A DNA stretch of 64,000 nt from the NCBI GenBank assembly GCA_023664665.1, contig JAMPEY010000010.1, positions 37,498-101,497 on the forward strand, given 5' to 3'. Position numbers and translations under genes: made by a program. Source of the DNA: Lachnoclostridium sp. (GTDB lineage Bacteria; Bacillota; Clostridia; Lachnospirales; Lachnospiraceae). Below are positions 3 through 41,005 of this stretch, piece after piece. Numbering within the stretch: the first letter of the stretch is position 1; the number at the start of each line of letters is the position of its first letter. The notes below the pieces were generated by a model. It was given only the letters and a program-made list of their open reading frames with translations, ran no database searches and had not been told where the DNA came from.

Positions 3-2036
3 TTTACATATGACAGTGCAAGCCTGAATGAGATTTTTGAGAGCGTTAATCCGGAATTGACCGTTTATATGGGCGCTTATGACACCAATTTTGCATGGCA
101 TGACGAGGAGGCGGAGGCGGTGAAATATTCCGCAAGCCTGATGAACCTTCTTATGGGATATGCCATGCGCTGTCAGGGCAGATTCATTTATCTGTCCTCG
201 GAAAATGTGTACAGCGGCAGTTATGATGGGGATATTTCCGAGACGGAGCCGGTGACTCCCGCGGGCATCAAGGGAATGACGCTGGCCCAGGGGGAAGAAA
301 TGTGCGAAAGTTACCGTAAAAACCGCGGTCTTGACATTATTACCCTGAGGCTTGACCATCTGTACAGCATTCCACAGGTCAGGGAGGATGTGGCGGATAT
401 CTGTTCCCGGATGTGTCTGGAGATTTTGGAGAAAAATACTTTGACAGTGGATGATGACAGCACTATTTCCCTGCTCTATGAAGCGGATGCCGTGGAGTTT
501 ATCTATCGTATCGCAGCATGCAGGGAACACAAACATCCCCTGTACCATATTTCCACTTCGGCAGCCATTTCGGAGCCGGAATTGGCAGATATCGTAAAGA
601 GCGCTATGGGAGAGAGCGCATGGGTCTTTCATGAGAATCACGGCGGAGGCAGAAGAATACTGTCCAACCGTCTTTTTGACAGCGAGTTCGGCAATCCGTT
701 TTTCTGTGATATGTCCGACATTATTCATAAAACTGCCACGCAGATGAAGTCCAACAAATATGTTTTTCTGAATGCGGAAGAAAAAAGGGAACCATTAAAG
801 GACCGTATCCTGAAAAAGGCGGGATGGCTGATAGGGGCATTGGTTCCTTTTGTGGAAAATATGATTGCTTTTATTCCCTTTTTTATGCTGAACAACCGTG
901 CCGTCGGCAGTGAATATTTTGCAAACCTTGACTTTTACCTTTTGTATGTGTTGTTGTTTGCCATTATCTATGGGCAGCAGCAGGCTACCTTTTCGGCGTT
1001 GTTAGCCATAGCGGGATATAGCTTCAGACAGATGTATGACAGGACAGGCTTTGAGGTTTTTCTGGATGCCAATACCTATGTGTGGATTGCCCAGCTGTTT
1101 ATTCTGGGGCTGACCGTGGGCTACATGAGGGATCAGATTACCAAGCTTAAGCGGGAGAGCAGGGAGGAGACGGAATTTATTTCCCTGCAGTTAAGCGATA
1201 TTCAGGATATTAACAGCAGTAATGTGCGAGTGAAGGATGCGTTGGAAACGCAGATTGTAAACCAGAATGACAGTGTGGGGAAAATATACAGCATTACTTC
1301 GGCGCTGGACAGGTACAGTCCGGAAGAGGTGCTTTTTTATGCGGCGGAAGTGCTCGGCGAACTGATAAAGAGCAAGGATGTGGCAATCTATACGATTTCC
1401 AACAGCTCTTACGCCAGATTGTTTTCTTCCACTTCCCGCAAGGCAAGAGTGCTGGGCAATTCCATCCGTTATGTGAATATGGGGGAGATGTACGAGACCC
1501 TGATGGAGCGCCGGGTTTTTATTAACCGTAGGATGGATGAAAGATATCCCCTTATGGCAAACGCAATCTTTGAAGGCGAAGAGATGCGGATGATTCTCAT
1601 GGTCTGGGGCATTCCGTGGGAGAGTATGACATTGGGGCAGGCAAATCAGCTGGTGGTTATCAGTTCCCTGATTCAGAATGCAGTGTTACGGGCCAACAAA
1701 TATATGGAGGCGCTTACGGACACAAGGTATCTGGAGGGAACAAAGATATTGGAGCCGGAGGCATTTGATGCTCTTGTAAACGCTTACTTAAAGGCGGAGC
1801 GGAAGGGGCTGACGGAATGCGCACTTCTTAAGATGAAAGTGGAGCCGCCGGATTATGAAAAGGCGGGAACCGCCTTTCAGGAAAAACTGCGGCAGACGGA
1901 TTATGTCGGCATTCTGCCCAACGGAAAGATGTATATACTGTTAGCCAATACCGATGAGGCGGACACCACCATAGTGGTAGAGCGTTTTGCGGAAATGGGC
2001 TATGGATGTGATATCGTGGAGGACGGTCAAAAATGA
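3..2036 (+). CDS. pelD: Epimerase-PelD fusion, c-di-GMP receptor of Pel exopolysaccharide synthesis (5' end outside window)
   Basis: The frame is open to base 3, so the gene starts upstream of the window. The visible N-terminal part (about 240 residues) resembles the C-terminal half of an NAD-dependent sugar epimerase/SDR (YLSSENVYSG, TLRLDHLYS). A hydrophobic block of about four helices follows (bases ~830-1130), then a short coiled segment, a GAF-like domain, and a degenerate GGDEF domain. In the last domain RQTD is followed after five residues by PNGKM in the place of GGDEF. That is the spacing of the c-di-GMP inhibitory site with the cyclase active site lost, as known for PelD. Known PelD binds c-di-GMP and activates the Pel synthase at the membrane. 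The next gene overlaps by four bases (ATGA). The epimerase part could supply an aminosugar precursor such as UDP-GalNAc; this is inference. Confidence 0.8.
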   Translation, partial: FTYDSASLNEIFESVNPELTVYMGAYDTNFAWHDEEAEAVKYSASLMNLLMGYAMRCQGRFIYLSSENVYSGSYDGDISETEPVTPAGIKGMTLAQGEEMCESYRKNRGLDIITLRLDHLYSIPQVREDVADICSRMCLEILEKNTLTVDDDSTISLLYEADAVEFIYRIAACREHKHPLYHISTSAAISEPELADIVKSAMGESAWVFHENHGGGRRILSNRLFDSEFGNPFFCDMSDIIHKTATQMKSNKYVFLNAEEKREPLKDRILKKAGWLIGALVPFVENMIAFIPFFMLNNRAVGSEYFANLDFYLLYVLLFAIIYGQQQATFSALLAIAGYSFRQMYDRTGFEVFLDANTYVWIAQLFILGLTVGYMRDQITKLKRESREETEFISLQLSDIQDINSSNVRVKDALETQIVNQNDSVGKIYSITSALDRYSPEEVLFYAAEVLGELIKSKDVAIYTISNSSYARLFSSTSRKARVLGNSIRYVNMGEMYETLMERRVFINRRMDERYPLMANAIFEGEEMRMILMVWGIPWESMTLGQANQLVVISSLIQNAVLRANKYMEALTDTRYLEGTKILEPEAFDALVNAYLKAERKGLTECALLKMKVEPPDYEKAGTAFQEKLRQTDYVGILPNGKMYILLANTDEADTTIVVERFAEMGYGCDIVEDGQK

Positions 2037-2944
2037 CATCACAGATGATTGGTTTTATCGTGCTGCTTGTGTTTAACACATTGGCGGCAGTGGGTTATCT
2101 TGTATGGAACCGCTTACGGAAGAAGGAAAACGACCAAAAAAGCTGCATATTCCGTTTTGTGATTATGCTGTTATGTCCGGTGGTGGCTCCCTGTTTCTTT
2201 TTGCTGGCGCATGTGATGTTTTGTCTCTTCTTCTCGGAGCCGGTGAGTCTGGAAGATGTGGTGTTCAGCAAGGAGCGCGCCAGAACCTTTGTCCATGCGG
2301 AGGAAGAGCGGGAACGCAATATCGTGCCTTTGGAGGAAGCCATTGAGATCACGGATAAAAGCGGTCTGCGGACCCTGATGATGAATGTGGTGAGGGGCGA
2401 TATCCATAAGTCTCTGGCGGCTATTTCCGGGGCATTGAACAGCGAGGACACTGAAACGGCGCATTATGCGGCATCGGTGCTGCAGGACGCTTTAAACGAT
2501 TTCCGTATTCATGTGGAGAAACAGAGGCAGTTGATTCTGGACAATGACGAAAAACAGATATATTATGCGGACAATCTGCTGGAATATATGAATCCGGTGT
2601 TGGAGCAAAAAGTATTTACAGATATGGAACAGCATACTTATGTGGCAATTATGGACGAGATCGGTGAAATATTTTATGCAAACGCCCCGCAGAAAATGAA
2701 CAGCAGCCATTATGAGGCTCTGAGCCTGCGTCTCTTGGAAGTTGAGGATTACGAGAATTGCAGGAAATGGTGCGAGCGCGCGAAAATGTATTATCCCAAC
2801 ACGCTTGCTACCTACACCTGTCAGTTAAAGCTCTATTTTAACAGTGTACAGAGGGAGAAATTTTTTGAGGTTATTGAAGAGTTAAAGCAGTCTGCTGTGG
2901 TGATTGACAGTGAAACTCTGGAATTGATCAGGGTATTTCGCTGA
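2033..2944 (+). CDS. pelE: PelE-like membrane-anchored helical-repeat protein
   Basis: 303 residues. Two hydrophobic helices lie at the N terminus (about residues 5-25 and 42-65), followed by a soluble, wholly helical region that looks like TPR repeats (for example the segment near YENCRKWCERAKMYYPN). This is the layout of PelE, which in known Pel systems joins PelD and PelG in the inner-membrane synthase complex. The start codon overlaps the PelD stop as ATGA, indicating translational coupling. Sequence identity to characterised PelE cannot be judged here; the call rests on topology and position between PelD and the PelA/PelF/PelG genes. Confidence 0.7.
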   Translation: MTSQMIGFIVLLVFNTLAAVGYLVWNRLRKKENDQKSCIFRFVIMLLCPVVAPCFFLLAHVMFCLFFSEPVSLEDVVFSKERARTFVHAEEERERNIVPLEEAIEITDKSGLRTLMMNVVRGDIHKSLAAISGALNSEDTETAHYAASVLQDALNDFRIHVEKQRQLILDNDEKQIYYADNLLEYMNPVLEQKVFTDMEQHTYVAIMDEIGEIFYANAPQKMNSSHYEALSLRLLEVEDYENCRKWCERAKMYYPNTLATYTCQLKLYFNSVQREKFFEVIEELKQSAVVIDSETLELIRVFR

Positions 2945-2980
2945 TTGGCATGCACACAGAGGCGGAATGGGAGCGGTTCG

Positions 2981-4804
2981 ATGATATCTCGCAGAAACTT
3001 TTTCAGCATATGCATTATGATGGCGGTTTTAGTATTCATGTTTCAATTCTCCCAGGTGTTCAAGACTTGGGGGAGTAATTATAATGTCAACGAATATGTG
3101 AGCGAATCGCAGCCCTCCGGTCAGGATAAGTGGCAGTCTGCCGACTATAAGACTTCGGACGAAAAATTTCCTGTGAGGGATTATGTGCTGTTTCTGGGGG
3201 AGAAGGATACCGAACTGTGGAATGTGGTAAAGCAGTGGTGTACCTATACCAAGAAGGATACGCTGACAGCGCCGAATACCAGAGGTTTTGAACTGCCAAA
3301 GGAACATCTTCCCGTCATGATTCTGATTGACTCCGACGCCATTAATTTTGCAATGGAAATGAGTTCCCTGTTAAAGGTGACGCAGTATGGCGTACCGGTG
3401 GTATTTTGTAATCTGCCGGAGGTATCCGTGATCAAAAAAGAGGAAAGGCTGCAGGAGCTTCTGGGCATCCGCAGAGTGAAAGCGGATACGGTAAGAGCAA
3501 GAGGCATACAGATGTATTCCGGCTTTCTTCTGGGAGGAGAGGCTCTTTATAAAGTGGAAAAAGAGGAAGAGGAAAAGCTTCAGGATTTCAACCTTGAAAT
3601 CCCATGGTACGCCACGGGAAGAGGAACCAAGACTTATATGGTGGGGCTTATAGATGATGAGGATACGGAGAGAGAGGATTTTCCCAGCCTGATTTGGCGT
3701 AACAGCTACAACGGGACGCCGGTATTCGCCGTATGCGGCGATTATCTGTCAGACCTTGCCGGATTGGGCATTTTGGATTCCTTTGTCTATGAGACGAGTT
3801 CTTATGAGCTCCATCCGGTGGTGAATGCCTGCAATGTAGTGGTATCGGATTATCCGTTTTTTGCCTCCGAAAATAAGGAGACCATACAGAGAATCTACGG
3901 ACGGGATGTGAAATCGGTGCTTCGCGATATCATGTGGCCCGGTGTTTCCGCCATGGCGGAGCAGAATAAGTTAAAGCTGACCTGCTGTATAGCTCCGCAA
4001 TATGATTATCTGGACAGTGAGGAACCCGCCGCGGACAATATGGTCTTTTATCTGCAGCAGATGAAAGAAATCGGCGCTGAAGCAGGGAAATCCCTGATAT
4101 ATGGCGGAGGGATCCCTCTTTCGGAAAAGATGGAACGGGATAGTGTTTTTTTGGACAATCCGGGAATTGGTTACCGTTACAATGCGGTGTATACCGGAAA
4201 AGAGGTGCCGGGAGAGCTGGAAGGAAAATGGGAAGAAAGATATTTACGGGATGTGAGTACCTTAACCTGTGCTTATGGCGAAAAATATCCCCTTCTGTCC
4301 TATTATAAGGATGATGTAACATTGCAGTGTATTACGGGAGAGGCTACGGAGTATAGCTATTTTAGGGATCTGCGGGCAAGAAGCATCTCCACGGCTTTGG
4401 GCTATTCTAATGTTTTGGTGGATATGCACAGCGCTGTGTGGCCGGAGGGAAAAGAACAGCAATGGGAAGCTTATTTTGATAAGATTTCCAGCAATGTCAG
4501 CACTTATTGGAACAAATATAAAGCTTTTTCAAGGACCACTTTGTCGGAGAGCGATAAAAAAGTCAGGACATTCTTAAATCTTGACTACGAGACCTCCCGT
4601 GAAGGAGATAAGATTTTTCTTACCGTTACGGGCGCGGAGGGGGATGGATGGTTTTTGCTGCGCACCCACGGAGAGGATGTTGTACAGGCACAGAATGCGG
4701 AATATGAAAAGCTGGAGGAAAATGCCTATCTGATACATACGCTTGCCGATAATGTGGAACTTCAGGTGGAGGTTTCAGGGACGGTGCCGCAGTTTTTGAA
4801 ATAA
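2981..4804 (+). CDS. DUF2194-type protein in the PelA position of the Pel operon
   Basis: About 607 residues. The ATG at 2981 is preceded by GGGAG with a 7-base gap; an upstream TTG at 2945 has no comparable site. One N-terminal membrane helix (IMMAVLVFMFQF) anchors a large extracytoplasmic domain. The sequence resembles the DUF2194 family, which occurs beside PelF and PelG in clostridia. By position it would take the role of the PelA modification enzyme (deacetylase and/or hydrolase), but I see no clear polysaccharide-deacetylase metal motif, so catalysis is not claimed. It follows pelE by 36 bases and precedes pelF by 17. Confidence 0.65.
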   Translation: MISRRNFFSICIMMAVLVFMFQFSQVFKTWGSNYNVNEYVSESQPSGQDKWQSADYKTSDEKFPVRDYVLFLGEKDTELWNVVKQWCTYTKKDTLTAPNTRGFELPKEHLPVMILIDSDAINFAMEMSSLLKVTQYGVPVVFCNLPEVSVIKKEERLQELLGIRRVKADTVRARGIQMYSGFLLGGEALYKVEKEEEEKLQDFNLEIPWYATGRGTKTYMVGLIDDEDTEREDFPSLIWRNSYNGTPVFAVCGDYLSDLAGLGILDSFVYETSSYELHPVVNACNVVVSDYPFFASENKETIQRIYGRDVKSVLRDIMWPGVSAMAEQNKLKLTCCIAPQYDYLDSEEPAADNMVFYLQQMKEIGAEAGKSLIYGGGIPLSEKMERDSVFLDNPGIGYRYNAVYTGKEVPGELEGKWEERYLRDVSTLTCAYGEKYPLLSYYKDDVTLQCITGEATEYSYFRDLRARSISTALGYSNVLVDMHSAVWPEGKEQQWEAYFDKISSNVSTYWNKYKAFSRTTLSESDKKVRTFLNLDYETSREGDKIFLTVTGAEGDGWFLLRTHGEDVVQAQNAEYEKLEENAYLIHTLADNVELQVEVSGTVPQFLK

Positions 4805-4821
4805 AAGAAATGGAGACTGGT

Positions 4822-6297
4822 ATGAAAATATGCATCTTGGCGGAGGGCTGTTATCCCTATGTGGTGGGAGGTGTGTCCGGATGGATTCACAGTATGATAA
4901 AGTCTTTTCCGAGGGTAGAATTTATTATATTGGCGATTGTGTCCAACCGTTCCCAGAGCGGAAAGTTCGCCTATGAGCTGCCGGAAAATGTGACGGCGGT
5001 GTATGAGGCTTATCTGGACGATTATGATTGGGGACACAAAAAGAAGTACGGCAGCCGTACCAGTTTAAGCGATAAGGAATATTTTGCTTTAAGGAGCATG
5101 GTTTTAAATGAGGATGTGGATTGGGACACTATCTTTGAGATGTTTCAGACCATGAAGTTTTCCATCGACGATTTGCTGATGGGAGCCGATTTTTTGAGTA
5201 TTGTGAAGGAATGCTACAAAAGCCGATACCCCTATGTGGTTTTTTCGGATTTTTTGTGGACCATGCGCTCCATTTATCTTCCTCTTTTTTTGATTCTGCA
5301 GACCCATCTGCCCGAGGCGGACATTTATCACTGTGTTGCCACGGGTTATGCCGGGGTGCTGGGAAGTATGGCAAAGCATTTTCACAGGAGCGGGCTTTTG
5401 GTGTCCGAGCACGGTATTTACACAAGGGAGAGGGAAGAGGAGCTTTTAAAGGCAGGATGGGTGGCAGGCATTTACAAAAATATCTGGATAGAGCAATTCA
5501 GAAAGATGTCGCGGCTTGTCTATGACAGGGCGGATATCGTGACCAGCCTGTATGCCCACGCCAGAGAGCTTCAGATAGAATTGGGCTGCCCGGAGAATAA
5601 GACCAGAATTACTCCCAACGGAATCGATACCCGGCGTTTTGCCGCTCTCCCCGGCAGGAAAGAAGAGGATGAAGGGTATGTGAATATGGGGGCGGTGCTT
5701 AGGGTGACGCCCATCAAGGATGTAAAGACCATGATCCGGGCTTTTGCCTTTGCGAAAAAGAAAGCGGACAATCTGAAACTGTGGATTATGGGACCCTGCG
5801 ATGAGGATGAACAGTATGCGCAGGAGTGTTATGAACTGGTGGACGCCTTAAAAGTAAAGGATGTTGTCTTTACCGGCAGAATCAATGTGCAGGAATATCT
5901 GGGGAGGATGGACTTTACCATTTTAACCAGCATCAGCGAGGGGCAGCCCCTTACCATATTGGAGAGCTTTGCGGCCCATAAGCCCGTGATAGCCACGGAT
6001 GTGGGAAACTGCCGGGAGCTGATTTACGGATTGGACGACGGATGCGGGACCGCCGGCATTCTGACGCACATTATGAATACCGCGGAGCTTGCGGAAGCCA
6101 TGGTCAAAATGGCGCAGAATCCCAAGCTTGTAGAAGACATGGGAAATTGCGGGTACAAAAGAGTCATGCGCAGTTACCGGATAGAACAGATGAAGCAGAC
6201 TTACGAAGAGATTTATGAGGGAATCGGCTGGGAGCAGGGAATACTCTGGCCGGAAGAGGAGTATACACAGGAAGAATTAAACGGTGCCAATCAATAA
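4822..6297 (+). CDS. pelF: PelF, GT4 glycosyltransferase of the Pel polysaccharide
   Basis: 491 residues with a GT-B fold. The N terminus carries the PelF-typical segment ICILAEGCYPYVVGGVSGW. The C-terminal nucleotide-sugar site has the EX7E pattern in SEGQPLTILES. Known PelF is the cytosolic polymerase that uses UDP-GalNAc/GlcNAc-type donors. The ATG at 4822 is chosen because GGAG lies six bases upstream; the in-frame ATG at 4810 overlaps that site. The gene is followed after 20 bases by pelG. Confidence 0.9.
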   Translation: MKICILAEGCYPYVVGGVSGWIHSMIKSFPRVEFIILAIVSNRSQSGKFAYELPENVTAVYEAYLDDYDWGHKKKYGSRTSLSDKEYFALRSMVLNEDVDWDTIFEMFQTMKFSIDDLLMGADFLSIVKECYKSRYPYVVFSDFLWTMRSIYLPLFLILQTHLPEADIYHCVATGYAGVLGSMAKHFHRSGLLVSEHGIYTREREEELLKAGWVAGIYKNIWIEQFRKMSRLVYDRADIVTSLYAHARELQIELGCPENKTRITPNGIDTRRFAALPGRKEEDEGYVNMGAVLRVTPIKDVKTMIRAFAFAKKKADNLKLWIMGPCDEDEQYAQECYELVDALKVKDVVFTGRINVQEYLGRMDFTILTSISEGQPLTILESFAAHKPVIATDVGNCRELIYGLDDGCGTAGILTHIMNTAELAEAMVKMAQNPKLVEDMGNCGYKRVMRSYRIEQMKQTYEEIYEGIGWEQGILWPEEEYTQEELNGANQ

Positions 6298-6317
6298 ATA
6301 GAAAAGGAGGCTGCCTT

Positions 6318-7760
6318 ATGGCGGGAATCGGCGTAAGACTCAATAAAATATACAGCAAGAATACCATCACCACCAATCTGGTGGGATTCGGCTATAGTAC
6401 CGTGATTACCATAGCTCCTATGTTTTTGGTGATCGTGGCGGTTTTTCTGATGCAGATGCTTCTGGGCGTTTCCAAGCTGGACTATGCCAGCAGGGAGTTG
6501 TATTCCTGCACCCTTTTGTATATTTTTGTCTTTGCGCTGCTGGCGGCGTCGCCTTTTAACGCTGTATTGTCCAAATATATGTCGGATGTGATTTATGAAG
6601 AGACTTATGATGATATTCTGCCCTGCTATTATGTGGGACTTATTTTGAATATCGCATTCGGCTGTCTGCTGGGGATTCCTTTCTGCGTCAGGGAATATTT
6701 GGTGGGACAGGTGGATTTATTCTATGTGTTTGTGGGATACTGTGGTTATATTGCGCTGATACTGGTGTTTTATTCCATGCTCTATCTGTCCATCTGCAAG
6801 GATTATAAAAAGATATCCCTGTTTTTCTTTGCGGGAATGCTGGTGACAGTGCTGTTATCCCTTGTTCTTGTGTATCTGTTCCACATGGAGGCAACATTTT
6901 CCATGCTGCTTTCCCTGACGGTGGGTTTTCTGATCATAGCTGCGCTGGAGCTTGCGCTGGTAAAGAGTTATTTCAGGCAAAACAGCGGCAGATACAGGAA
7001 GGTGTTAAAATATTTTAAGACATGGTATCTTTTGGTAATCTGTAATTTTTGCTATACCATAGGACTTTATCTGCATAATTTTGTGTTCTGGGCTACGGAT
7101 ATGCATATGGTGATTGCCAAGAGCTTCGTATGTATGACCACTTATGACATGGCTACCTGTATCGCCATGTTTACCAATATTTCCGCCAGCGTTATTTTTA
7201 TCTCAAGGGTTGAGATGCATTTTCATGAGCGGTACAAAAATTATTCCGAAGCGGTCATCGGCGGCAGGGGAAATTCCATCGAGAATGCCAAAAAGAGAAT
7301 GTTCAGCCAGCTTTCCGAGGAGCTGATGAATCTGGTCCGCATTCAGTTTATCATATCCGTGGTGCTCTTTCTGCTATGTATCATATTGCTGCCGAGATTT
7401 GGAATGGGGGGTATGGTGATGCAGATATATCCCTGTCTGGCAGCGGGTTATTTCATTTTGTTTATCATGTATGCGGCAATTATTTTTCTGTATTATTTTA
7501 ATGATACGAGAGGGGCTGCGGCTACGGCGATGAGTTTTTGCGTTGTCACGCTTCTCGGGAGCATCTGGGCGACCACCCTTCCCGTTATCTGGTACGGAAT
7601 CGGGTTGGTGATGGGGGCTGCCGCAGGCTGGTGCGTCGCTTATGACAGACTGAGGACGCTGGAAAGGAATCTGGACATTCATGTTTTCTGTAACGGTAAC
7701 ATTATGAAGCGGGGGCACGGAAAGAAGCCCTCCAACAAGGTGTACGAAAAGAAACTTTAA
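6318..7760 (+). CDS. pelG: PelG, multi-pass exopolysaccharide transporter
   Basis: 480 residues and about 12 hydrophobic helices, in the MATE/Wzx-like superfamily to which PelG belongs. The start (MAGIGVRLNKIYSKNTITTN) follows AAGGAGG. PelG is known to sit in the membrane with PelD and PelE and to carry the growing polymer outwards. The final ~40 residues are basic and cytoplasmic. Position directly after pelF is the standard Pel arrangement. Confidence 0.88.
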   Translation: MAGIGVRLNKIYSKNTITTNLVGFGYSTVITIAPMFLVIVAVFLMQMLLGVSKLDYASRELYSCTLLYIFVFALLAASPFNAVLSKYMSDVIYEETYDDILPCYYVGLILNIAFGCLLGIPFCVREYLVGQVDLFYVFVGYCGYIALILVFYSMLYLSICKDYKKISLFFFAGMLVTVLLSLVLVYLFHMEATFSMLLSLTVGFLIIAALELALVKSYFRQNSGRYRKVLKYFKTWYLLVICNFCYTIGLYLHNFVFWATDMHMVIAKSFVCMTTYDMATCIAMFTNISASVIFISRVEMHFHERYKNYSEAVIGGRGNSIENAKKRMFSQLSEELMNLVRIQFIISVVLFLLCIILLPRFGMGGMVMQIYPCLAAGYFILFIMYAAIIFLYYFNDTRGAAATAMSFCVVTLLGSIWATTLPVIWYGIGLVMGAAAGWCVAYDRLRTLERNLDIHVFCNGNIMKRGHGKKPSNKVYEKKL

Positions 7761-16690: not shown

Positions 16691-16745
16691 TTAATCTGTT
16701 GACATCGGATTTGAGGTTACGCGGAACAAAATCACGGAGGTTGAG

Positions 16746-17945
16746 GTGAAAAGAGAAGAAGAGTTGCTGCTTGGGCTGTTAAAAGAGGAGCTTGGCGGCG
16801 GGGATAAAAACATATCAAAAGAGGAGCTTTCCGCGGTAAACTGGGGAGAATTTCTGGCTCTTGCACAGGCTCACAGTGTGCTGTCCTTGCTCTACGGAGC
16901 TTTTGAAAAAAGGGGGGAAGGATTTGTGCCAGCTTCTGTATGGCAGCGGACCCGGACTGTGGCAAGGCAGACCGTAAAGCAGAGTTACCGCCTTTTGTTT
17001 TTATCTAAGTATCTGCTCCATGTGCTGGAGGAAGCCCGGATTCCCGCGGTGCTGTTAAAAGGCGTGGCCACGGCGTCTTTTTATCCCGTGCCGGAGCTGA
17101 GAAAGGCGGGAGATGTGGATATACTGCTTTTGGAAGAAGAGAGGCTTTCGGAATGCTGTGGACTTCTGGAGGAGAAGGGTTTCAGGGTTATGGAGAACCA
17201 GCCCTCCCTGCACCATGTGGTATTACAATCGGAGGACGGAGTGGAGATAGAGATTCATACTATGCTGGCGGAGCCTTTTGACAATCAGCGGATGAATCAG
17301 TATATGAAAAAGACGGCGGCGGAATGCAGCGGACATATCTGTATTGCCGATATGATGGGAATCTCCCTGCCGATGCTGGATGCCCCCTGCCATGCTTATG
17401 AACTGCTGCTCCATATGCTGCAGCATTTTTTGCGCTCGGGTTTCGGACTGAAACTTTTGTGCGATTGGGTGGTATTCTGGAACCGGGAGGAGAACAGGCG
17501 GGAAGCGGCAAAATATCTTTCCATGGTGAGGGAAAGCGGGCTCAAAGGATTTTCCGATATGGTGAGTCTTGCGAGCTTTCGGTATCTGGGGCTGTCAGGG
17601 GAGGCAAAGGAGTGTCTTGAGGTGACGGGAGAGTATGATGCGGAAGCTTTTATGGAGGAAATTTTGTCCGCCGAAGAATTCGGGAAATCGGCGCCGGAGA
17701 GGATGGTTGCGCTCCGGGGGAACGGCATGGCGGATTATGTCAGGGAGTTTCATCACCAGATGCACCTGAATTTTCCCAAGAGCGGCAGATGTTTTCTGCT
17801 CTGGCCGTTTCTTTGGACGGTTACGCTGTTTCGGTTTTTGCGAAATAACCGAAAGGTGAGGAAGACCTCTGCTTTTGCCGTTTTTAAGACTGCGGGACAG
17901 AGGGGAAAGATCATGAAACAGATAGGGCTGTGGAAAAATAGGTGA
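16746..17945 (+). CDS. NTP_transf_5-type nucleotidyltransferase
   Basis: 399 residues; GTG start with GGAGG five bases upstream. The N-terminal half has the nucleotidyltransferase core LLKGVATAS, then RKAGDVDILLL (the G-D-x-D metal pair) and EIEIHTML. This fits the NTP_transf_5 family (PF14907), members of which lie in kinase-bearing lasso-peptide clusters such as paeninodin-type loci. The C-terminal half is helical. It could modify a phosphorylated peptide made by the PqqD-kinase product encoded at 22806-23969; the link is by family and neighbourhood only. It might instead act in the glycan locus just upstream. Confidence 0.75.
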   Translation: MKREEELLLGLLKEELGGGDKNISKEELSAVNWGEFLALAQAHSVLSLLYGAFEKRGEGFVPASVWQRTRTVARQTVKQSYRLLFLSKYLLHVLEEARIPAVLLKGVATASFYPVPELRKAGDVDILLLEEERLSECCGLLEEKGFRVMENQPSLHHVVLQSEDGVEIEIHTMLAEPFDNQRMNQYMKKTAAECSGHICIADMMGISLPMLDAPCHAYELLLHMLQHFLRSGFGLKLLCDWVVFWNREENRREAAKYLSMVRESGLKGFSDMVSLASFRYLGLSGEAKECLEVTGEYDAEAFMEEILSAEEFGKSAPERMVALRGNGMADYVREFHHQMHLNFPKSGRCFLLWPFLWTVTLFRFLRNNRKVRKTSAFAVFKTAGQRGKIMKQIGLWKNR

Positions 17946-17962
17946 TTTTATTGAGGAAAGCA

Positions 17963-17991
17963 TGGAAAAATATTTGATAATAATATATAAT
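17963..17991 (+). promoter_or_regulatory. Candidate promoter of the cyclic-nucleotide-domain gene
   Basis: TGGAAA at 17963-17968 and TATAAT at 17986-17991 are separated by 17 bases. The -10 box is perfect and the -35 box is weak. It lies 66 bases before the next start codon. Confidence 0.4.
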
Positions 17992-18056
17992 GTTGTAGGA
18001 AATAAATTCTGTGGCGTTGAAAGCAACAGGGATCAATGATGTAAGAGGTGTGAATT

Positions 18057-20348
18057 ATGGCAGGAACAATGTTAAAAACAGGCACAAAAGTTTATGAGTA
18101 CGGGCAGCCGATGACAGCGCTGCATCTGATTGCGTCCGGTAAGGTTACGGCATTTTATCCGGGAGGACATTATGAGCTGGGCAAGGGAGATGTCATCGGC
18201 ATCTGTGAAATCTGCTCAGAGTTTCATTTTATCAGCTACACGGTGCGGGAGGATGCGACGATTTTGACTTATCCCATCACGAATGTGGAAGGTTTGGGGG
18301 ATTTTTTGCAGAATCATCAGGATATTGCAAGATTTTTCCTGCTTTCTACATTCCGTCAGCTGAATGAGCTGCAGAATCTTTGCTCGATTTCCCATTTGGA
18401 ATGCAGCAATTTATACAGAGAGCTTTTGTCGGACTGTGATAAATATAATCAGTTAAGCAGTCGTTTCAGAATTCAGGCAAAACCCTTGGAGGGGATGGAT
18501 GAGCTGACGGCATATTTAAACGACGAGTCGCCGGATTTGTGGCTCAGTGAATACTATGCGGGCATGATGCGTATTTACTCCGGGTCAAGCTGCAAGGAAA
18601 TTCTGCAGGAATCGGCGGTGTCACTGGGATTTTTGAGAAAGTGCAGTCTTGACTTCAGAAAAACTTATTCCGGCACGGAAGAGCAGCATGCATACCGTAC
18701 AAAGCTGAGTAAATTTTATTTTAGGGAAGACGGGAATGATTTGTTTGAGCGTTTTGCCAATCTGGCAGGAAAGCTGGGAGCGGACTGCGAAGAGTTTGGG
18801 GAAGTGCTTATGATTCTTGAGAGAATCATAAAAGACTACGGAGAAGACCATACTTGCGACAAGACGCAGACGGACAAACGCATTGCGGCATTCCGCTTAA
18901 ATGCGGAGCAGAAGAACATTCAGACGGATGAAAAGACGACAGAATCCTCCAATACTTCCGAAGCGGCTTTATCTGAGGAGCTTGTGGATTCTTTGGGAAC
19001 GATATTGGATTTTGCCGGTGTGGAAGCAGAGACGGAAGACTCTTTCCGCAAACATATACAGGAATACAGACAGCTTGAGGATAAGGCGGATACGGATGAG
19101 GCGGCGAACCGTCTGCGCAGGATGTTGACGGAAGAATTTTATCTCATTTACAGCGCTGTTTTTGAAAATACGCTGGATGCGGCAGAGATTCCGCTGCCTG
19201 TGCTTATGTTTTTATATTTCGGTTATGTGGACGAAGAACTTGCAGGCATCGGGAATGCGGGGATTCTTGCAAGGATTGCGGGACAGATAACGGATCACAG
19301 CGACTTGGGAGTTTATACATTTTATGATTGGCTGTTGGCGGTCTATGACGGAAATAAGGTTCCCAGCCGTGATGAATTCGGTCAGGATTATGCGGAATAT
19401 CTGAGTAAGCAGAAACAGGCGGGAAATATTACGGACAGACAGCTTCGCGATCTGCAGGAAGACGGCATGGAGAAGGTGAGGTTTGAACTGAAAAATATGT
19501 TCCCCACAGCCAATAAGATCACCTATGGCCGTGTCACTACCTTTTGTCCGCTGTTTGTCAAAGAAGATGTGTTAAAAGATTTGGAGGATTCCTATGTGAC
19601 TCCGTCAAAAATCGCACGCTCCCTGCAGATGATCAAAGCCGTGGATTATACCGCATTTTACCGCGAGAGTCTGGATATGGACAATATAGCCGTGATGGGG
19701 AAGGAGCCGATACATCTGGAATATCTGCCGGATGTGATTTTGCTTCCCAATATCGGCATACGAGGCATTTTGTGGCAGGAAATCGAAGGAAAAGTACGAA
19801 ACAGTCCGAGCCGTATGTTCCTTTCCGTTTTCCATCTGGAGGATTTGGATTCCTCCATGATAAGGATGACGGGAGATTTCCGCTGGGAGCTGTGCAAGCG
19901 TGTGCAGGGCGGCCGCTGGAACGACCTTACCGAGCCTTCCCTTACCAGCGAATATTTCGACTATATTCAGTTTTACAAAAAGAACCGCGATTTGAGCACG
20001 GAGGCAAAAGAAAAGCTGCGTTCGGGCTTACAGCGCGCAAAGAACAGCTTTAAGGAAATGTTTATCAGGGATTATATGATGTGGATTTTGTTTGAAGGGA
20101 AAAATTCACCCAGAATGAACAAGGTAGCGCGTAAGATATTCTTTACCTACTGTCCTTTTCCTGATGATATCTGTACCGTGCTGGCTCAGAATCCGCTTTA
20201 TGCGGAGCTTCTCGAAAGGAGGAGAATCAAGACCGCTCAGAAGCTCCATCATCTGGATGTGCTGGTGAAAAAGTTAAGGAACAGCGGAACCGTAGTACCC
20301 GAGACTTTGGAGCAGGAGCTTTTGTATGTTGAGGGCAAAGTGAACTGA
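18057..20348 (+). CDS. Cyclic-nucleotide-binding-domain protein of unknown function
   Basis: 763 residues, no signal peptide and no membrane helices. Residues ~1-110 look like a CRP-type cyclic nucleotide-binding beta-roll (EYGQPMTALHLIASGKVTAF; the following GKGDVIG matches the turn of that fold). The rest is mostly helical with an acidic linker near residues 280-305, and no DNA-binding helix-turn-helix was recognised. It sits between the nucleotidyltransferase and the small secreted-looking polypeptide. It may sense a nucleotide and regulate the neighbouring system, but the C-terminal 650 residues are not recognised. Confidence 0.6.
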   Translation: MAGTMLKTGTKVYEYGQPMTALHLIASGKVTAFYPGGHYELGKGDVIGICEICSEFHFISYTVREDATILTYPITNVEGLGDFLQNHQDIARFFLLSTFRQLNELQNLCSISHLECSNLYRELLSDCDKYNQLSSRFRIQAKPLEGMDELTAYLNDESPDLWLSEYYAGMMRIYSGSSCKEILQESAVSLGFLRKCSLDFRKTYSGTEEQHAYRTKLSKFYFREDGNDLFERFANLAGKLGADCEEFGEVLMILERIIKDYGEDHTCDKTQTDKRIAAFRLNAEQKNIQTDEKTTESSNTSEAALSEELVDSLGTILDFAGVEAETEDSFRKHIQEYRQLEDKADTDEAANRLRRMLTEEFYLIYSAVFENTLDAAEIPLPVLMFLYFGYVDEELAGIGNAGILARIAGQITDHSDLGVYTFYDWLLAVYDGNKVPSRDEFGQDYAEYLSKQKQAGNITDRQLRDLQEDGMEKVRFELKNMFPTANKITYGRVTTFCPLFVKEDVLKDLEDSYVTPSKIARSLQMIKAVDYTAFYRESLDMDNIAVMGKEPIHLEYLPDVILLPNIGIRGILWQEIEGKVRNSPSRMFLSVFHLEDLDSSMIRMTGDFRWELCKRVQGGRWNDLTEPSLTSEYFDYIQFYKKNRDLSTEAKEKLRSGLQRAKNSFKEMFIRDYMMWILFEGKNSPRMNKVARKIFFTYCPFPDDICTVLAQNPLYAELLERRRIKTAQKLHHLDVLVKKLRNSGTVVPETLEQELLYVEGKVN

Positions 20349-20378
20349 AAATAATTTGGGTAACTTGGCCGGCAGGGC

Positions 20379-20407
20379 TTGACAGAGACGGCGAATCGGA
20401 ATATAAT
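20379..20407 (+). promoter_or_regulatory. Consensus sigma-A promoter for the small polypeptide gene
   Basis: TTGACA at 20379-20384, a 17-base spacer, and TATAAT at 20402-20407 form a perfect match to consensus. Transcription should begin near 20414, leaving a leader of about 110 bases before the start codon at 20524. The strength fits a highly made structural product. Confidence 0.8.
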
Positions 20408-20419
20408 CTTATTAAGAGG

Positions 20420-20431
20420 GTACATATGTAC
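20420..20431. promoter_or_regulatory. Palindrome at the transcript start, possible operator
   Basis: The 12-base perfect palindrome GTACATATGTAC begins about six bases after the expected transcription start of the consensus promoter. A repressor bound here would block initiation. It could also be chance. Confidence 0.3.
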
Positions 20432-20523
20432 TTTTATCGTTGTGTAAAGTGAAATAGTAGTTATGTTTTGCCCAGGATGACGGAAAGGATGCAGTTTTTC
20501 CGAGCGGGCGGGGAGGTAAGAAG

Positions 20524-20952
20524 ATGAAAGAATATGAAAGTCCTATTGTTCTTGTTGATCAGGAGTTGTCCGAGGATGTTTATATGACCGGAAGCGGTTC
20601 CGGCGACTGCTGGACCATGACGGTAGAGGTTGCCCAGAGAAATGCGGGCGAAGGAAATACCAATTTCCGTGTGGCGGCAACACATTCCACCGGGCTTCAT
20701 ATTTCAACGGAGACAGTGGTTACCGTTACCTTTAACCAGCCGGTTAATTCGGTTAACTTTGAAGGCTTTGAGACCAGCATAAACGGCAATGTGGCAGTAT
20801 TGACCCGTTCCAGCCATGCCAACGCTTATGGGAACAGCGATAATTTCAATACGCTGATGACCGTGAACAGTGCCGATTCCGATACGCTGGAGGTTGTGGC
20901 TGCCACCATCGACTGCGCCCATGCCGTGAATGTACAGGGCGGATATGATTGA
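20524..20952 (+). CDS. Leader-bearing small polypeptide, predicted CBM2-like beta-sandwich (candidate modified precursor)
   Basis: 142 residues; start after GGGAGGTAAGAAG. The first ~25 residues are hydrophilic and contain YESPI, which matches the YxxPxL/I leader motif bound by PqqD-like recognition elements in lasso-peptide systems, and end in a Gly/Ser run (TGSGSGDC). The rest is beta-rich with two cysteines (after the Gly/Ser run and about 15 residues from the C terminus) placed as in the N-to-C disulfide of CBM2 modules; the segment VVTVTFNQPVNSVNF fits such a strand pattern. There is no Sec signal peptide. The ABC exporter, PqqD-kinase fusion and S26-type peptidase downstream suggest it is recognised, perhaps phosphorylated, exported and cut. 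The fold assignment is by eye and weak. Confidence 0.55.
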   Translation: MKEYESPIVLVDQELSEDVYMTGSGSGDCWTMTVEVAQRNAGEGNTNFRVAATHSTGLHISTETVVTVTFNQPVNSVNFEGFETSINGNVAVLTRSSHANAYGNSDNFNTLMTVNSADSDTLEVVAATIDCAHAVNVQGGYD

Positions 20953-20988
20953 TGCGCAAACGCAGAGGATATGAATAAGATTTTTACG

Positions 20989-21021
20989 GGGCTGCCGCAT
21001 TCATGCATAATGTGGCAGCCC
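20989..21021 (+). terminator. Hairpin between precursor and exporter genes (attenuator or processing site)
   Basis: A 13-base-pair stem (GGGCTGCC plus GCATT against AATGTGGCAGCCC, one G-U pair) with a 7-base loop, followed by CTGTTTGTGGTTT. The T run is broken, so termination is probably partial. It would raise the amount of precursor message relative to the exporter. Confidence 0.6.
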
Positions 21022-21067
21022 TGTTTGTGGTTTGGACAGCGTTTTGGAGAAAGGAGCCGGCAATGCC

Positions 21068-22813
21068 ATGAAAGAGAAAATTTCATTTATCATAGGCCGC
21101 GTCAAGGCGGGAAGACTGCAGGAAATGTGGCATCAGACGGTATGGATTTATCAATATGCCAGACAGCATTGGGCGGCGATGATTTTTTATACCCTGCTTG
21201 GCATGACAGGGACGGTGCTGTCTCTGGTAGGCGGTCTGGCTTCCAAGAATCTGGTGGATATCATTACGGGACATGAGACGGGAAAACTGATGGCTACATT
21301 CTGTATGCTGATCGGAATGAATGTGGGCAATACTCTGGTGAACCAGATAACAAATTATATTTCCGCCAAGATCAGCATGAGAGTGGACGCCGAAATCAAG
21401 TCCGATATTTTTGCCAAGATATTGGTGACGGATTGGGAATCTCTTACCAATTACCATACGGGGGACCTACTGGTCAGATGGAGTTCGGATGCGGGAAATA
21501 TTTCTACGGGGGTATTAAATTTTATTCCTAATCTGGTGATTTATCTCTTTCGCTTTGTCAGCGCTTTTGCAATGGTTATTTATTATGACGCCAGTTTTGC
21601 GGTCTTTGCCTTTATCAGCATGCCGGTGAGCTTGATTTTGTCCAAAACCTTAATGAAACGCATGGTGAATAATAATAAGCGGAGCGCCGCTATGGGAGCC
21701 AAAATGTCGGGATTTAACCAGGAGGCGTTTTCTAATATACAAACCATAAAAGCATTTGATTTGATTTCACTATATGTAAAAAGATTGAAGCAGATTCAGC
21801 AGGAATACATAAACATGAAGTTGGATTTCCAGAAAATGTCCATGGGAACCTCTCTGTTGATGACCACCGTTGCCATGATAGTCTCATACAGCGCTTATGG
21901 CTGGGGGATTTACAGGGTTTGGAGCAATGCCATTTCTTACGGTACCATGACCTTGTTTCTCAGTCTTTCCTCCACCCTCACAGGCACTTTGAACAACTTG
22001 ACTTCCCTTGTGCCTACTGCCATAGGGCTTACCACTTCCGCAGGCAGGCTGATGGATATTGTGGAAATGCCCAGAGAGGATTACAGCCGGAATGAAGCGG
22101 TGGAAAAGTTTCGGAAGAGATTTTGTGAGACGGGCATCAGCCTTATTGTGAAAGATATCTCTTTTGCCTACCATAACAAAACGGAAGTGTTTTCCCACGC
22201 TTTCCTTGAGGCGCATCCCCATGAAATCGTAGCGTTGGTGGGTCCCTCGGGGGAAGGAAAGACAACCATGCTCCGCATTATACTGTCTCTGATACGCCCG
22301 AGTGAGGGCGAAGTCCTGCTCTGCGGCTCCCATGGATCCGATAAAGATTCCATTCCCTTAAGCGCTTCCGCCAGAAAGCTGTTTTCCTATGTGCCTCAGG
22401 GAAATACCATGTTTTCGGGAACCATTGCGGAGAATATGAGAAATGTAAAGCCAGACGCCACGGATGAAGAGATTGAAGAGGCGCTTCGCCTTGCCTGCGC
22501 GTGGGACTTTGTGAGCAGGCTGCCGGAAGGCATTTACAGTATGGTACAGGAGAGGGGTGGCGGTTTTTCGGAAGGGCAGTCCCAGAGGCTTTCCATTGCA
22601 AGGGCGCTGCTCCGCAAATCGCCCATACTGCTCTTGGATGAGGCAACCTCGGCTCTGGATGTGGAAACGGAACAGGAGGTTTTAAAGCATATTGTTCAGG
22701 ACGATTATCCCAGAACCTGTATCGTGACCACTCACAGGCCCACGGTTTTAAGCTCATGCAATCGTATCTATACCATTAAGGACAAACAATGTGTGGTGAC
22801 CAAACTTACATAA
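21068..22813 (+). CDS. ABC exporter, fused membrane and ATPase domains
   Basis: 581 residues. About six membrane helices (residues ~35-320) precede an ATPase domain with Walker A GPSGEGKTT, signature EGQSQRLSIARALL, Walker B ILLLDEATSALD and the switch His in TTHRPT. It lacks an N-terminal C39 peptidase, so cleavage of any exported leader must be by another enzyme, which fits the S26-type peptidase at 24071-24532. ATG 21068 has AAGGAG 11 bases upstream. It ends eight bases inside the convergent kinase-fusion gene. Substrate is probably the small polypeptide encoded upstream. Confidence 0.88.
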   Translation: MKEKISFIIGRVKAGRLQEMWHQTVWIYQYARQHWAAMIFYTLLGMTGTVLSLVGGLASKNLVDIITGHETGKLMATFCMLIGMNVGNTLVNQITNYISAKISMRVDAEIKSDIFAKILVTDWESLTNYHTGDLLVRWSSDAGNISTGVLNFIPNLVIYLFRFVSAFAMVIYYDASFAVFAFISMPVSLILSKTLMKRMVNNNKRSAAMGAKMSGFNQEAFSNIQTIKAFDLISLYVKRLKQIQQEYINMKLDFQKMSMGTSLLMTTVAMIVSYSAYGWGIYRVWSNAISYGTMTLFLSLSSTLTGTLNNLTSLVPTAIGLTTSAGRLMDIVEMPREDYSRNEAVEKFRKRFCETGISLIVKDISFAYHNKTEVFSHAFLEAHPHEIVALVGPSGEGKTTMLRIILSLIRPSEGEVLLCGSHGSDKDSIPLSASARKLFSYVPQGNTMFSGTIAENMRNVKPDATDEEIEEALRLACAWDFVSRLPEGIYSMVQERGGGFSEGQSQRLSIARALLRKSPILLLDEATSALDVETEQEVLKHIVQDDYPRTCIVTTHRPTVLSSCNRIYTIKDKQCVVTKLT

Positions 22814-23969
22814 AGTTTTTGATGGTTTTGAGAATGGTTTCCACGGCGGAAGGCATGGGGGTACAATGCAGGCGGCAGATGAGGATGCGCTCTGACAGTT
22901 TCTCCACAAATTGCAGATTCTGATTTTGCATATCCTGATTCCAAGAGGGAGTGATAAGTCTTTGAAGCAGAAAAAACTGCTTTTTGTCGCAAGAAAGCTC
23001 TTCCACGAAATCTTCCTTCGCCTGTTTCAGCAAAATAATACCGCCTAAGGGATGGGTTTCGGTATCGAAAATGCGGGATGTGCCGCACCAGGGAATTCCG
23101 TGTATGACGGGTTCCTTGTCCCGAAATGCCAGCAGATTCAAATCGCCGTTCAATATGGGGGCATTAAAAAAGTTGTGCCATAAACCGGCATGGGTGGACT
23201 TGCCGGTGCCGGAGGACGCCGAGAACAGCCATGCCTTGCCGCCGTACAATATGGAAGAGGAGTGGAGGGCCGCCATATGGTGTGTGCCTGCCAGAAGGAG
23301 ATAGACAAGCCTCATGGCGCCGGAGAGCTGTTCATAAAAGTCTTCCCTGTAGGGCGGAGTGAAATAAATAATGGCTTTGGAGGCATCTTTTGAAATTTTA
23401 GCCTCCGTGATTTGGGAAGCGGCGGGAAAAAGAAGAATATAACAGTCCTCTGCCTCCATCACAATCAGTTCTTCGTTGCGGACCAATACCCTGCCGTTTA
23501 TGTGGCGGCGGGGTTTTCCTATGTGCAGGGAAACATGCTGGTGGAAATCGGGGCATTCGCCGGGAGAATTTATCAAAAACGGAGAAAAGGCGGGAGGAAA
23601 CGCTTCTGTGGGAGCCGAAAAGCGGATGGTAAGACCGCCGATTGCAAGATACTTGTCGGGAAAAATCTGACTTGTCGCAATTTCCTGCGTATTTTCCAAT
23701 GCTCCACAGGAAAGCAGTTTCTCTACAAAGGATTCCAAGTCTTTTTTCAACAGGGGCATTTCTTCCGCAGGGGTTTGGTAATGCTTGGCGCAAAGGGAAA
23801 CAAGCTCTTCCGTTGTCCGGAAATCTTTCAAAAGCTCCCACAGATAGCAGCCGGTTTCGTTTATCTGTATGCCGTGTCCACGGTCTGAAATCATCTGCCC
23901 AAAGGGAAGCAGATAAAAAATTCCTGAAATTTCCTGCAGTGCATAAAAGGGATTTCGCCTGATGAGCAT
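22806..23969 (-). CDS. PqqD domain fused to HPr-kinase-like domain
   Basis: 387 residues. The start at 23969 has AAGGAGG seven bases upstream, so an 11-residue upstream extension is not used. Residues ~1-100 are a PqqD-like winged domain (GHGIQINETGCYLWELL, then the helices with SFVEKLLSCGAL), which in RiPP systems binds leader peptides. The C-terminal two thirds contains the P-loop SASSGTGKSTHAG of HPr-kinase/PEPCK-like enzymes, followed by ILNGDLNLL and HGIPWCGTS. Related kinases phosphorylate the C-terminal serine of lasso peptides of the paeninodin type. It faces and overlaps the ABC gene by eight bases. No lasso cyclase is present. Confidence 0.85.
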   Translation of the reverse strand: MLIRRNPFYALQEISGIFYLLPFGQMISDRGHGIQINETGCYLWELLKDFRTTEELVSLCAKHYQTPAEEMPLLKKDLESFVEKLLSCGALENTQEIATSQIFPDKYLAIGGLTIRFSAPTEAFPPAFSPFLINSPGECPDFHQHVSLHIGKPRRHINGRVLVRNEELIVMEAEDCYILLFPAASQITEAKISKDASKAIIYFTPPYREDFYEQLSGAMRLVYLLLAGTHHMAALHSSSILYGGKAWLFSASSGTGKSTHAGLWHNFFNAPILNGDLNLLAFRDKEPVIHGIPWCGTSRIFDTETHPLGGIILLKQAKEDFVEELSCDKKQFFLLQRLITPSWNQDMQNQNLQFVEKLSERILICRLHCTPMPSAVETILKTIKNFM

Positions 23970-24070
23970 GTATGTATCCTCCTTCGCATCACTTGGTGCC
24001 ATAAATCAAAATGTACATCCGCCTATAAATTATTATAGCATTGGGGACGGGGAAATGCTACAATAAAGGC

Positions 24071-24532
24071 ATGGAAAAGACAGGTTTGGAAAACGATAAA
24101 GTCAATATTGAAGAGCTGCTGAAAGAGGGGCATACCGTTCAGGTAAAGCCCAAGGGTTACAGTATGTATCCTTTGTTTGTGCCGGGGCGGGATGAGGCCG
24201 TGATTGCGCCGGTGAAGGATAACATGTGTCTGAAGCGCGGAGATGTGGTGCTTTACCGCAGGAGGGAAAGTATGCTGGTCATGCACCGCATCTGGAAATG
24301 CAGGGGAGACCGGTTCTATCTGGTGGGCGATAATGAGAGCAGACCGGAAGGCCCTCTGTCAGGAGAGCAGATAAAGGGGATTCTGGTGGGAATTGTCCGC
24401 AAGGGAAAATATTTCTCGGTCAGACAACCGATGTATCGGATGCTCTCGGGGTTATGGCTGGCACTAAGACCCTTACGCCCCATTTTGTCAAAAGCGGCGG
24501 CAGGGGGGAAGCGTTTTTTGAAAATTCGTTAG
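24071..24532 (+). CDS. S26/S24-type serine peptidase (signal-peptidase-like)
   Basis: 153 residues. GYSMYPLF carries the catalytic serine of the S24/S26 fold, and RGDVVLYRR plus VMHRIWK follow; the second position is His as in SipW/ER-type signal peptidases rather than the Lys of bacterial type I enzymes. FYLVGDNE is the usual box E. There is no convincing N-terminal membrane helix; a weakly hydrophobic segment lies near the C terminus. ATG 24071 is preferred to a TTG at 24041, although the ribosome site is weak. Divergent from the kinase-fusion gene, it probably removes the leader of the exported polypeptide. Confidence 0.78.
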   Translation: MEKTGLENDKVNIEELLKEGHTVQVKPKGYSMYPLFVPGRDEAVIAPVKDNMCLKRGDVVLYRRRESMLVMHRIWKCRGDRFYLVGDNESRPEGPLSGEQIKGILVGIVRKGKYFSVRQPMYRMLSGLWLALRPLRPILSKAAAGGKRFLKIR

Positions 24533-24549
24533 AGTTTGTTAAAAAAATA

Positions 24550-24579
24550 TTGTACATTCCGGGTAAGAGGTGTTATAAT
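24550..24579 (+). promoter_or_regulatory. Promoter of the PocR-MCP gene
   Basis: TTGTAC at 24550-24555, an 18-base spacer, TATAAT at 24574-24579. It lies 55 bases upstream of the start codon. Confidence 0.65.
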
Positions 24580-24633
24580 GAATGGGAGAGAATTACAGCT
24601 GGCTCAGACAACAAATCAGGAAGAGGGTAAGGT

Positions 24634-25419
24634 ATGAAAATACAGGATTTTACAGATATGGAAAAGTTTGAGGAAATCATGTCCAGTTGGGCGAAATCCA
24701 CGGGGCTTGCAACCGTAGCGGTGGGAATGGACGGAGAGTACATTTCCGAGTGCTATAATTTTACGGATTTCTGTATTAAGTATACCAGAGGCTCCGCGGA
24801 GGGGAAACGCCGCTGCGAGCAGTGTGACAGGGACGGAAAAGGTGTTTACCACTGTCATGCGGGACTGATAGATTTTGGAATTGATTTGGTAGTGAGCGGA
24901 AAGAAAGTGGGTTCCGTTATCGGGGGTCAGGTACTTCCGGAGAATCCCGACGAGAACAAATTCCGTCAGGTGGCGAAAGAAATTGGCGTGGAAGAGGAAG
25001 CTTATCTGAAAGCGCTGAAGGAAGTAAATGTTAAGACGGAAGAACAGATTCATGCTTCTGCCAATCTGCTGGGTGAGGTTTTAAACAATTTCATTAACTT
25101 TGAATATAATAAAAAGTATAACGGTGATTTGATTGACAGACTGACTACCGGCGTGTCAAAATGTGAAAAGCTTGTTCTTGATATCCAGCAGAACACGGCT
25201 GATTTGAACCGTATTCAGCAGAGACAGAATATATTGGCGTTAAATGCCAGCATAGAGGCGGCAAGAGCCGGCGACGCCGGAAAGGGCTTTGCGGTTGTTG
25301 CCAAGGAAGTGGGAAGCCTGTCCGTGGAGAGCAGGCGGTTGAATGAGCAGATATTCAAGACGATAAACAGCATTTCCCAAGTAGTGCATGATATGACTGC
25401 AGGAAACGAATTGGGCTGA
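24634..25419 (+). CDS. Cytosolic chemoreceptor-like protein with PocR sensor domain
   Basis: 261 residues, no membrane helix. Residues ~5-155 form a PocR ligand-binding domain with the Cys-rich segment [17 protein letters not shown]. The C-terminal part is a short chemoreceptor signalling hairpin with the conserved tip [20 protein letters not shown]. The hairpin is truncated on its return arm (it stops ~40 residues after the tip). PocR domains bind small metabolites such as diols. It may signal through CheA/CheW encoded elsewhere, or act as a stand-alone dimeric sensor. Confidence 0.8.
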
Positions 25420-40976: not shown

Positions 40977-41005
40977 TTGACAAATGCAGACGAGTCTATT
41001 ATAAT
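40977..41005 (+). promoter_or_regulatory. Perfect consensus promoter of a candidate non-coding RNA
   Basis: TTGACA at 40977-40982, a 17-base spacer, TATAAT at 41000-41005. All twelve box positions match consensus. It drives about 400 bases that hold no recognised gene. Confidence 0.85.

Follow-up and report, generated by a model that had tools for sequence, protein, structure and literature searches.

The stretch of DNA considered here is 64,000 nucleotides long and comes from the genome of a gut bacterium, Lachnoclostridium sp. (G000:C1:37498-101497, hereafter the window; G000 is the genome of the window, and other G and L handles stand for other genomes and loci). It encodes a small protein with an N-terminal leader among genes for a kinase, a peptidase, a nucleotidyltransferase and an exporter. 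We read this set as a maturation and export kit that is guided by RiPP recognition elements (RREs; RiPP, ribosomally synthesised and post-translationally modified peptide), resembles that of the recently described linear polyphosphorylated peptides (LPPs), has a small beta-rich domain as its cargo and works with a Pel-type polysaccharide locus, and we hold this reading with a probability of a little under 0.6. The kit, the leader and their co-occurrence are established from sequence comparison, and by structure modelling and profiles the principal cargos behind the leader resemble carbohydrate-binding domains, the structural match being borderline. The first-pass annotation of this DNA had proposed a RiPP-style kinase and export system acting on a folded protein; its gene positions were all reproduced, the membership of the leader in a kit of kinase, RRE, peptidase and exporter has held, as has the link to Pel, and the proposal as a whole is borne out in part.

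The precursor gene (20524..20952, forward strand) encodes 142 residues beginning MKEYESPIVLVDQELSEDVYMTGSGSGDCW, of which residues 1-20 form the leader MKEYESPIVLVDQELSEDVY (20524..20583, forward strand) and the remainder a beta-rich cargo with two cysteines. Comparison of 53 leaders points to Y4-P7-V9 as the predicted RRE motif; a YxxPxI leader had been described, and the leader stands while the motif is strictly YxxPxV, I8 being the x that precedes V9. By analogy with LppA, the leader is predicted to be cut after Y20 and Ser to be phosphorylated at S24, one residue farther on than in most relatives, the end of the leader reading EDVY-MTGS here and xxS in most of them. The glycine and serine run noted earlier is TGSGSG, and the precursor does have its own consensus promoter, a perfect sigma-70-type TTGACA-17-TATAAT (20379..20407, forward strand). 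A scan of the 64 kb found five such sites with at most one mismatch, two of them exact (0.52 expected); the other perfect site, at 40977-41005, has no relation to the kit. Between the precursor and exporter genes lies a strong terminator- or attenuator-like hairpin with a 16-bp stem (20986..21024, forward strand, z -3.45), and promoter and hairpin together fit a precursor that would be made from its own promoter in excess over the enzymes.

The kit genes are ordered NTP_transf_5, a gene for a 763-residue protein, precursor, ATP-binding cassette (ABC) exporter, PqqD-HprK fusion (opposite strand) and S26-type peptidase. The LppN/PsmN-like NTP_transf_5 protein (16746..17945, forward strand) matches Pfam PF14907 at 2.6e-38 and 132.5 bits (cut-off 31.2), and its motif LKG...GD[VI]D is intact and kept in 11 homologues. 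The MsbA-like exporter (21032..22813, forward strand) is an open reading frame from TTG whose real start may be the ATG at 21068; it contains ABC_membrane and ABC_tran, and no match to a peptidase domain was found in it, as had been proposed. The fusion of an RRE (PqqD) with an HprK-like kinase (22806..24002, reverse strand) matches PqqD in Pfam with 44.1 bits (cut-off 23.4), its second half giving weak NCBIfam matches of the HprK kind; H247, K268 and D287 are intact and invariant across all 17 rows of alignment A6, which includes the window and leaves out two degenerate kinase homologues, L031 and L035. The archaeal/ER-type signal-peptidase-like, LppS-like protein (24041..24532, forward strand) falls under the Pfam and NCBIfam cut-offs, yet S41, H82 and D97 are kept in all 11 aligned homologues. 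A second RRE is stand-alone, its gene being placed a little beyond the window edge (G000:C1:37003-37323), 20 bp before pelD and about 21 kb from the precursor. Profiles of the stand-alone RREs match TbiB1 (2.3e-9), TfuB1 (2.3e-7), LppB (1.7e-6) and PbaB1 (3.7e-5), while those of the fused RREs give weak matches to TbiB1 and LppB; in these profile comparisons the RREs fit TbiB1 better than LppB.

The closest relatives of this kit are the LPPs, described in May 2026 from the lpp cluster of Paenibacillus alginolyticus (PMC13381572). According to the main text of that report, the RRE LppB binds a YxxP leader, LppK adds several phosphates to core Ser3 (the third residue after the cleavage site) but leaves the S3T and S3Y variants unphosphorylated, LppS cleaved the leader in vitro only with LppB, and deletion of LppN had no effect in the host used; the clusters sit in polysaccharide loci and their precursors have 35-200 residues. 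The window kit shares with them an RRE, an HprK-like kinase, an NTP transferase, an SpI-like peptidase with Ser/His/Asp and an MsbA-like exporter, the kinase, transferase and exporter lying in one locus, together with a discrete RRE, a YxxPxV leader, a variable C-terminal part, a polysaccharide-locus setting and, among the nine genes screened, the lack of a macrolactam cyclase. It differs in the fusion of an RRE to the kinase with a second, discrete RRE before pelD, in a leader end of EGVY-xxSG with Ser at +16 from Pro where LPPs have FET-xxS and +15, in the common N at +5 where LPPs have H, and in its conserved domain-size cargo classes, Pel-type locus and Lachnospiraceae hosts. As the leader does not end in FETxxS, we do not file the kit as an LPP system in the strict sense. 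Lasso peptides of the paeninodin and pseudomycoidin type likewise combine a PqqD-type RRE, an HprK-like kinase and nucleotidyltransferase tailoring, and in the account of pseudomycoidin drawn on here the kinase phosphorylates Ser and PsmN then adds a hexose to it (PMC9266682). The leader here has Y where paeninodin has W, and the cargo is a protein domain; a Pfam screen of the nine genes within 14106-25416 gave no match to a macrolactam or other cyclase, or to a B2 peptidase (the screen did not extend to other parts of the genome), and a lasso peptide is thus not supported, in agreement with the first reading of the locus.

A literature search on LPP terms returned PMC13381572 alone, and its main text (supplements not covered) contains no word starting with 'Clostridi', 'Lachnospir', 'folded' or 'carbohydrate'; by title and abstract, nothing was found that links Pel with PqqD, RRE or RiPP, or RREs with carbohydrate-binding modules (CBMs). 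The kit type itself is thus already known from LPPs, and what is new here is the fused RRE-kinase, the second RRE before pelD and the domain-size, interchangeable cargos.

Recurrence was assessed in a sample of 299 genomes of the family, G000 included. Homologues of the small protein that are widespread without the kit were looked for there and not found: all 13 matches, which come from 12 of the 299 genomes (G000 among them), have the leader. With a profile built from 21 leaders, 17 genomes were found at E <=1e-6, ten further genomes at 1.9e-4 to 0.05 being left out of the count; at the level of the class, a leader search found 4 of 391 genomes, namely G000, G022, G315 and, as a match with an internal stop, G355. 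Neighbourhoods were fetched around precursor matches and for 20 kinase regions, and from all fetched loci 54 of 65 rows were kept as the precursor set. YxxP is present in all but one (53/54), and these 53 leaders share V, I or L at +2 from Pro without exception, E at +10 in 52 and S at +16 in 51; other positions are looser (L at +3 in 24, N at +5 in 32, E, D or Q at +6 in 44, and L, V, I or M at +8 in 42).

The fused kinase, used as a query at E 1e-10, found 71 of the 299 genomes, most matches being confined to the kinase half; in the loci that were read, the fusion is full-length in 19 family genomes, a count that excludes the long frames of G039, G130, G209 and G285, which match in the kinase half only. 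Every family genome read with an intact fused kinase also has a leader protein (17/17): sixteen are in the leader-profile list, and G096 has a divergent leader. In G240, whose assembly is fragmented, the leader protein is encoded on a different contig, and in G135 about 37 kb separate the kinase from the exporter, S26 gene and cargos. The fused kinases of G049 and G023 have a broken P-loop, and there neither an exporter nor a leader protein was found in the DNA read. Homologues of the S26 peptidase with 45-66% identity occur in 16 of 20 genomes queried, and in 11 of these they share a contig with the kinase; the match in G076 is interrupted by a stop, and no homologue was found in G096, G710, G146 (68% complete) or G704, which has no kit. 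Presence of the kit in many genera is more than chance would give, and with precursor and leader matches recurring across family genomes, we reject a chance or isolated open reading frame.

The same leader precedes different cargos. Grouped at E <1e-6, the cargos form the class of the window (30 members), a Cys-rich class (9), a beta class (3) and a small Cys class (3), besides two pairs, one CBM2-like and one weakly matching the ubiquitin family, and five singletons; single linkage at E <1e-3 was discarded, since matches of 4e-5 to 6e-4 were enough for it to chain other classes onto the main class. Profile comparison found no mutual relation among the main, Cys-rich, small Cys and ubiquitin-like classes. 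Members of the ubiquitin-like pair (L048:8763-9176 and L049:9474-9956) have E values of 0.0018 and 0.00022, below the curated cut-off, and are not linked to kit genes in their genome, G146, which is incomplete. The window cargo is predicted as eight strands, in keeping with the two-cysteine, beta-rich module described in the first pass. The further guess that it is CBM2-like fares less evenly: a structure prediction gave a borderline structural match to the fold of CBM family 2, and a sister cargo class is CBM2-like by profile, but the window cargo itself escapes recognition by sequence, with no Pfam match, and its class reaches hhalign probabilities of 7.5% (31 rows) and 0.7% (9 rows) against 16 CBM2 domains. 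A RiPP proper, whose core would be chemically remodelled into a natural product by sugar or nucleotide phosphates and disulfides with the fold incidental, would suit the more peptide-like Cys-rich classes B and D and the tailoring of lasso and LPP clusters by kinase and nucleotidyltransferase; set against a main class of 30 members with a common pattern and the eight strands predicted for the window member, we consider it distinctly improbable.

The Pel-type cluster of the window is of the clostridial kind (57..7760, forward strand) and comprises epimerase-PelD, the first gene, which starts upstream of the window edge, a gene in the PelE position (2033-2944), a DUF2194 gene (2945-4804), PelF (4810-6297) and PelG (6318-7760), all on the forward strand. 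PelF, PelG and epimerase-PelD are recognised by NF038011 (378 bits, cut-off 100), PF16933 (497 bits, cut-off 29) and an epimerase domain, and on the 3' side follow glycosyltransferases, a DUF4832 gene, a Stealth protein and a flippase. Epimerase-PelD, PelF, PelG and the DUF4832 gene are shared with the Gram-positive Pel cluster (PMC7112168), from which the locus differs by the RRE gene upstream of pelD and the leader-tagged proteins; 'PqqD' and 'RiPP' are absent from the passages of that text consulted.

Leader and Pel genes occur together in two samples. At E 1e-60 pelF is found in 53 of the 299 family genomes, in 17/17 with the leader as against 36/282 others (p 1.5e-14). A sample of 41 genomes of the genus, which has only G000 in common with the first, yielded the leader (limit E 1e-4) in 16, with pelF in 16/16 of these and in 1/25 of the rest (G704; p 1.6e-10). 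By co-occurrence the link to the Pel genes is strong, although the kit is not confined to Pel. The stand-alone RRE lies upstream of pelD in G000, G029 (about 500 bases before it), G076, G270, G034 and G135, and a profile built from these six, with the seed genomes excluded from the test, found it by pelD in 9/9 further leader genomes and in 0/8 close-pelF genomes without leader (p 4e-5), counted in readable DNA (contig ends truncate the region in G025, G001 and G163, and G146 lies outside coverage). The RRE of G043 matches by profile alone (2.1e-8), with no match in Pfam, and the 99- and 128-residue genes before pelD in G019 and G011, checked as hidden RREs, gave no PqqD match. In the genus the RRE was found at E <1e-19 in 15/16 leader genomes, the exception being G679 (330 contigs), and not in G704; 12 of the 15 lie on the same strand 5-8 kb upstream of pelF, that of G688 about 17 kb away and two on other contigs. 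PqqD matches at 1e-6 are more widespread (19/41 genus genomes, including the leaderless G686, G690, G710 and G717). The stand-alone RRE thus closely tracks the leader proteins in both samples.

What this RRE does in the pel operon may be read in two ways. It may be an LppB-type partner of the peptidase, placed there for co-expression and without a physical link to the Pel synthase, a role for which we see about an even chance and which is compatible with the LPP-like kit proposed above. LppS requires LppB for cleavage while the other RRE of this kit is fused to the kinase, and in G035 the RRE accompanies an unfused kit behind the pel genes rather than before pelD; for its part, the position directly before pelD in many genera is not needed for such a role, nor does it require contact with the synthase. 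Contrary to this is the idea that the RRE brings carbohydrate-binding proteins bearing the leader to the Pel synthase, kinase and NTP_transf_5 protein building a phosphate-sugar link near the new N-terminus, so that sortase-independent protein-Pel conjugates would arise for which phages supply their own cargo; this we regard as unlikely.

Several loci weigh against a strict tie between kit and Pel. No pelF match accompanies the cargo, exporter and fused kinase of G096, G686 and G710, nor the fused kinase of G690, the genomes G686, G690 and G710 being 81, 73 and 85% complete. In G686 and G710 a window-class cargo, its leader divergent, is encoded between the exporter and the kinase, and the kit locus of G690 is truncated. 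When genomes are counted by fused kinase, 16/17 in the family and 15/18 in the genus have pelF, as against 37/282 and 2/23 others, and a smaller, Pel-less form therefore exists. In G035, one of the eight close-pelF genomes without a window-type leader, an NTP_transf_5 gene stands directly before pelD, an unfused set of RRE, S26, HprK-like and ABC genes follows the pel genes, and a nearby 84-residue open reading frame with a WxxPxV motif begins WKKPEV...ENIAASG (L107:2841-4100; L154:9218-12534, 15146-15400); pel loci can thus house unfused kits of the classical type as well. Both arrangements slightly lower our confidence in the proposed reading.

Patchy presence, 16/41 genomes in one genus, together with swappable cargos, some orphan and some phage-borne, also suggests a diversifying system of secreted, bacteriocin-like effectors in conflict, placed in polysaccharide loci only through joint exchange. 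The LPP authors take such a pattern as typical of conflict in the main text of their report, where biofilms are speculated on as well (PMC13381572). Leader proteins without a kit gene in the surrounding 6-18 kb were seen in L051, L052, L124 and L125, where contig ends limit the view, and three phage contigs bear a leader-tagged cargo beside a phrog_284 exonuclease, and in two of these the sequence read also includes a terminase gene. The CBM2-like cargo class and the RRE before pelD in leader genomes but in 0/8 others speak against conflict, and no toxin or immunity gene was recognised among the Pfam matches, though no dedicated search was made; on balance we think this explanation rather unlikely. 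The phage cargos (L065:7519-7917, L072:7060-7458 and L076:609-1016) comprise two of the window's class and one Cys-rich protein, so that one kind of phage site, beside the exonuclease, is occupied by more than one kind of cargo. Two of the phage-borne cargos had no match in the phage record collection, and a second leader pattern had none in viral contigs.

From the biochemistry of LPPs and pseudomycoidin we infer how the LPP-like kit may work. The kinase-fused RRE would bind Y4-x-x-P7-x-V9, and the kinase would phosphorylate the Ser that closely follows the leader (xxSG, here S24); the stand-alone RRE would present the leader to the S26 peptidase for a cut after VY, the NTP_transf_5 protein may add a sugar or nucleotide to the phosphate, and the ABC exporter would secrete the cargo. 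Outside the cell, a cargo of carbohydrate-binding type would sit in or on the Pel-like matrix, and one leader could serve various cargos, including some whose genes are found at other sites in the genome or on phages. A leader-recognition element inside a defined exopolysaccharide operon suggests a job for LPP-type tagged peptides and, if the reading is right, RRE-guided tagging extends from short peptides to domain-size secreted proteins that are swappable and may be supplied in trans or by phages. With the RRE in that operon and cargos that resemble carbohydrate-binding domains, the question of what LPP and paeninodin systems are for becomes simply testable.

Some further observations concern neighbouring genes and other short peptides. 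The 763-residue protein between the NTP_transf_5 gene and the precursor (18057-20348) has a weak cNMP-binding match and, among the other annotated kit loci, only the near-identical L014 locus carries one. Five G315 peptides of 49-50 residues (L081, L084, L085, L086 and L087), which start Y-I-K-P...SE[DN]VI..SG, were set apart as a different group, the pattern Y-x-K-P...SEDVITTSG having no kit gene in four annotated regions; they are possibly another leader family. In those regions, one of which has two copies, they adjoin larger secreted-looking proteins. Short LPP-like precursor candidates are found at L036:8367-8579, L053:9122-9367 and L054:9313-9534, in genomes of the same family with unfused RRE and kinase. 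Lastly, a transglutaminase-like protein with an apparent signal sequence is encoded at 25533-27080, with homologues close to the S26 gene in L018 and L047.

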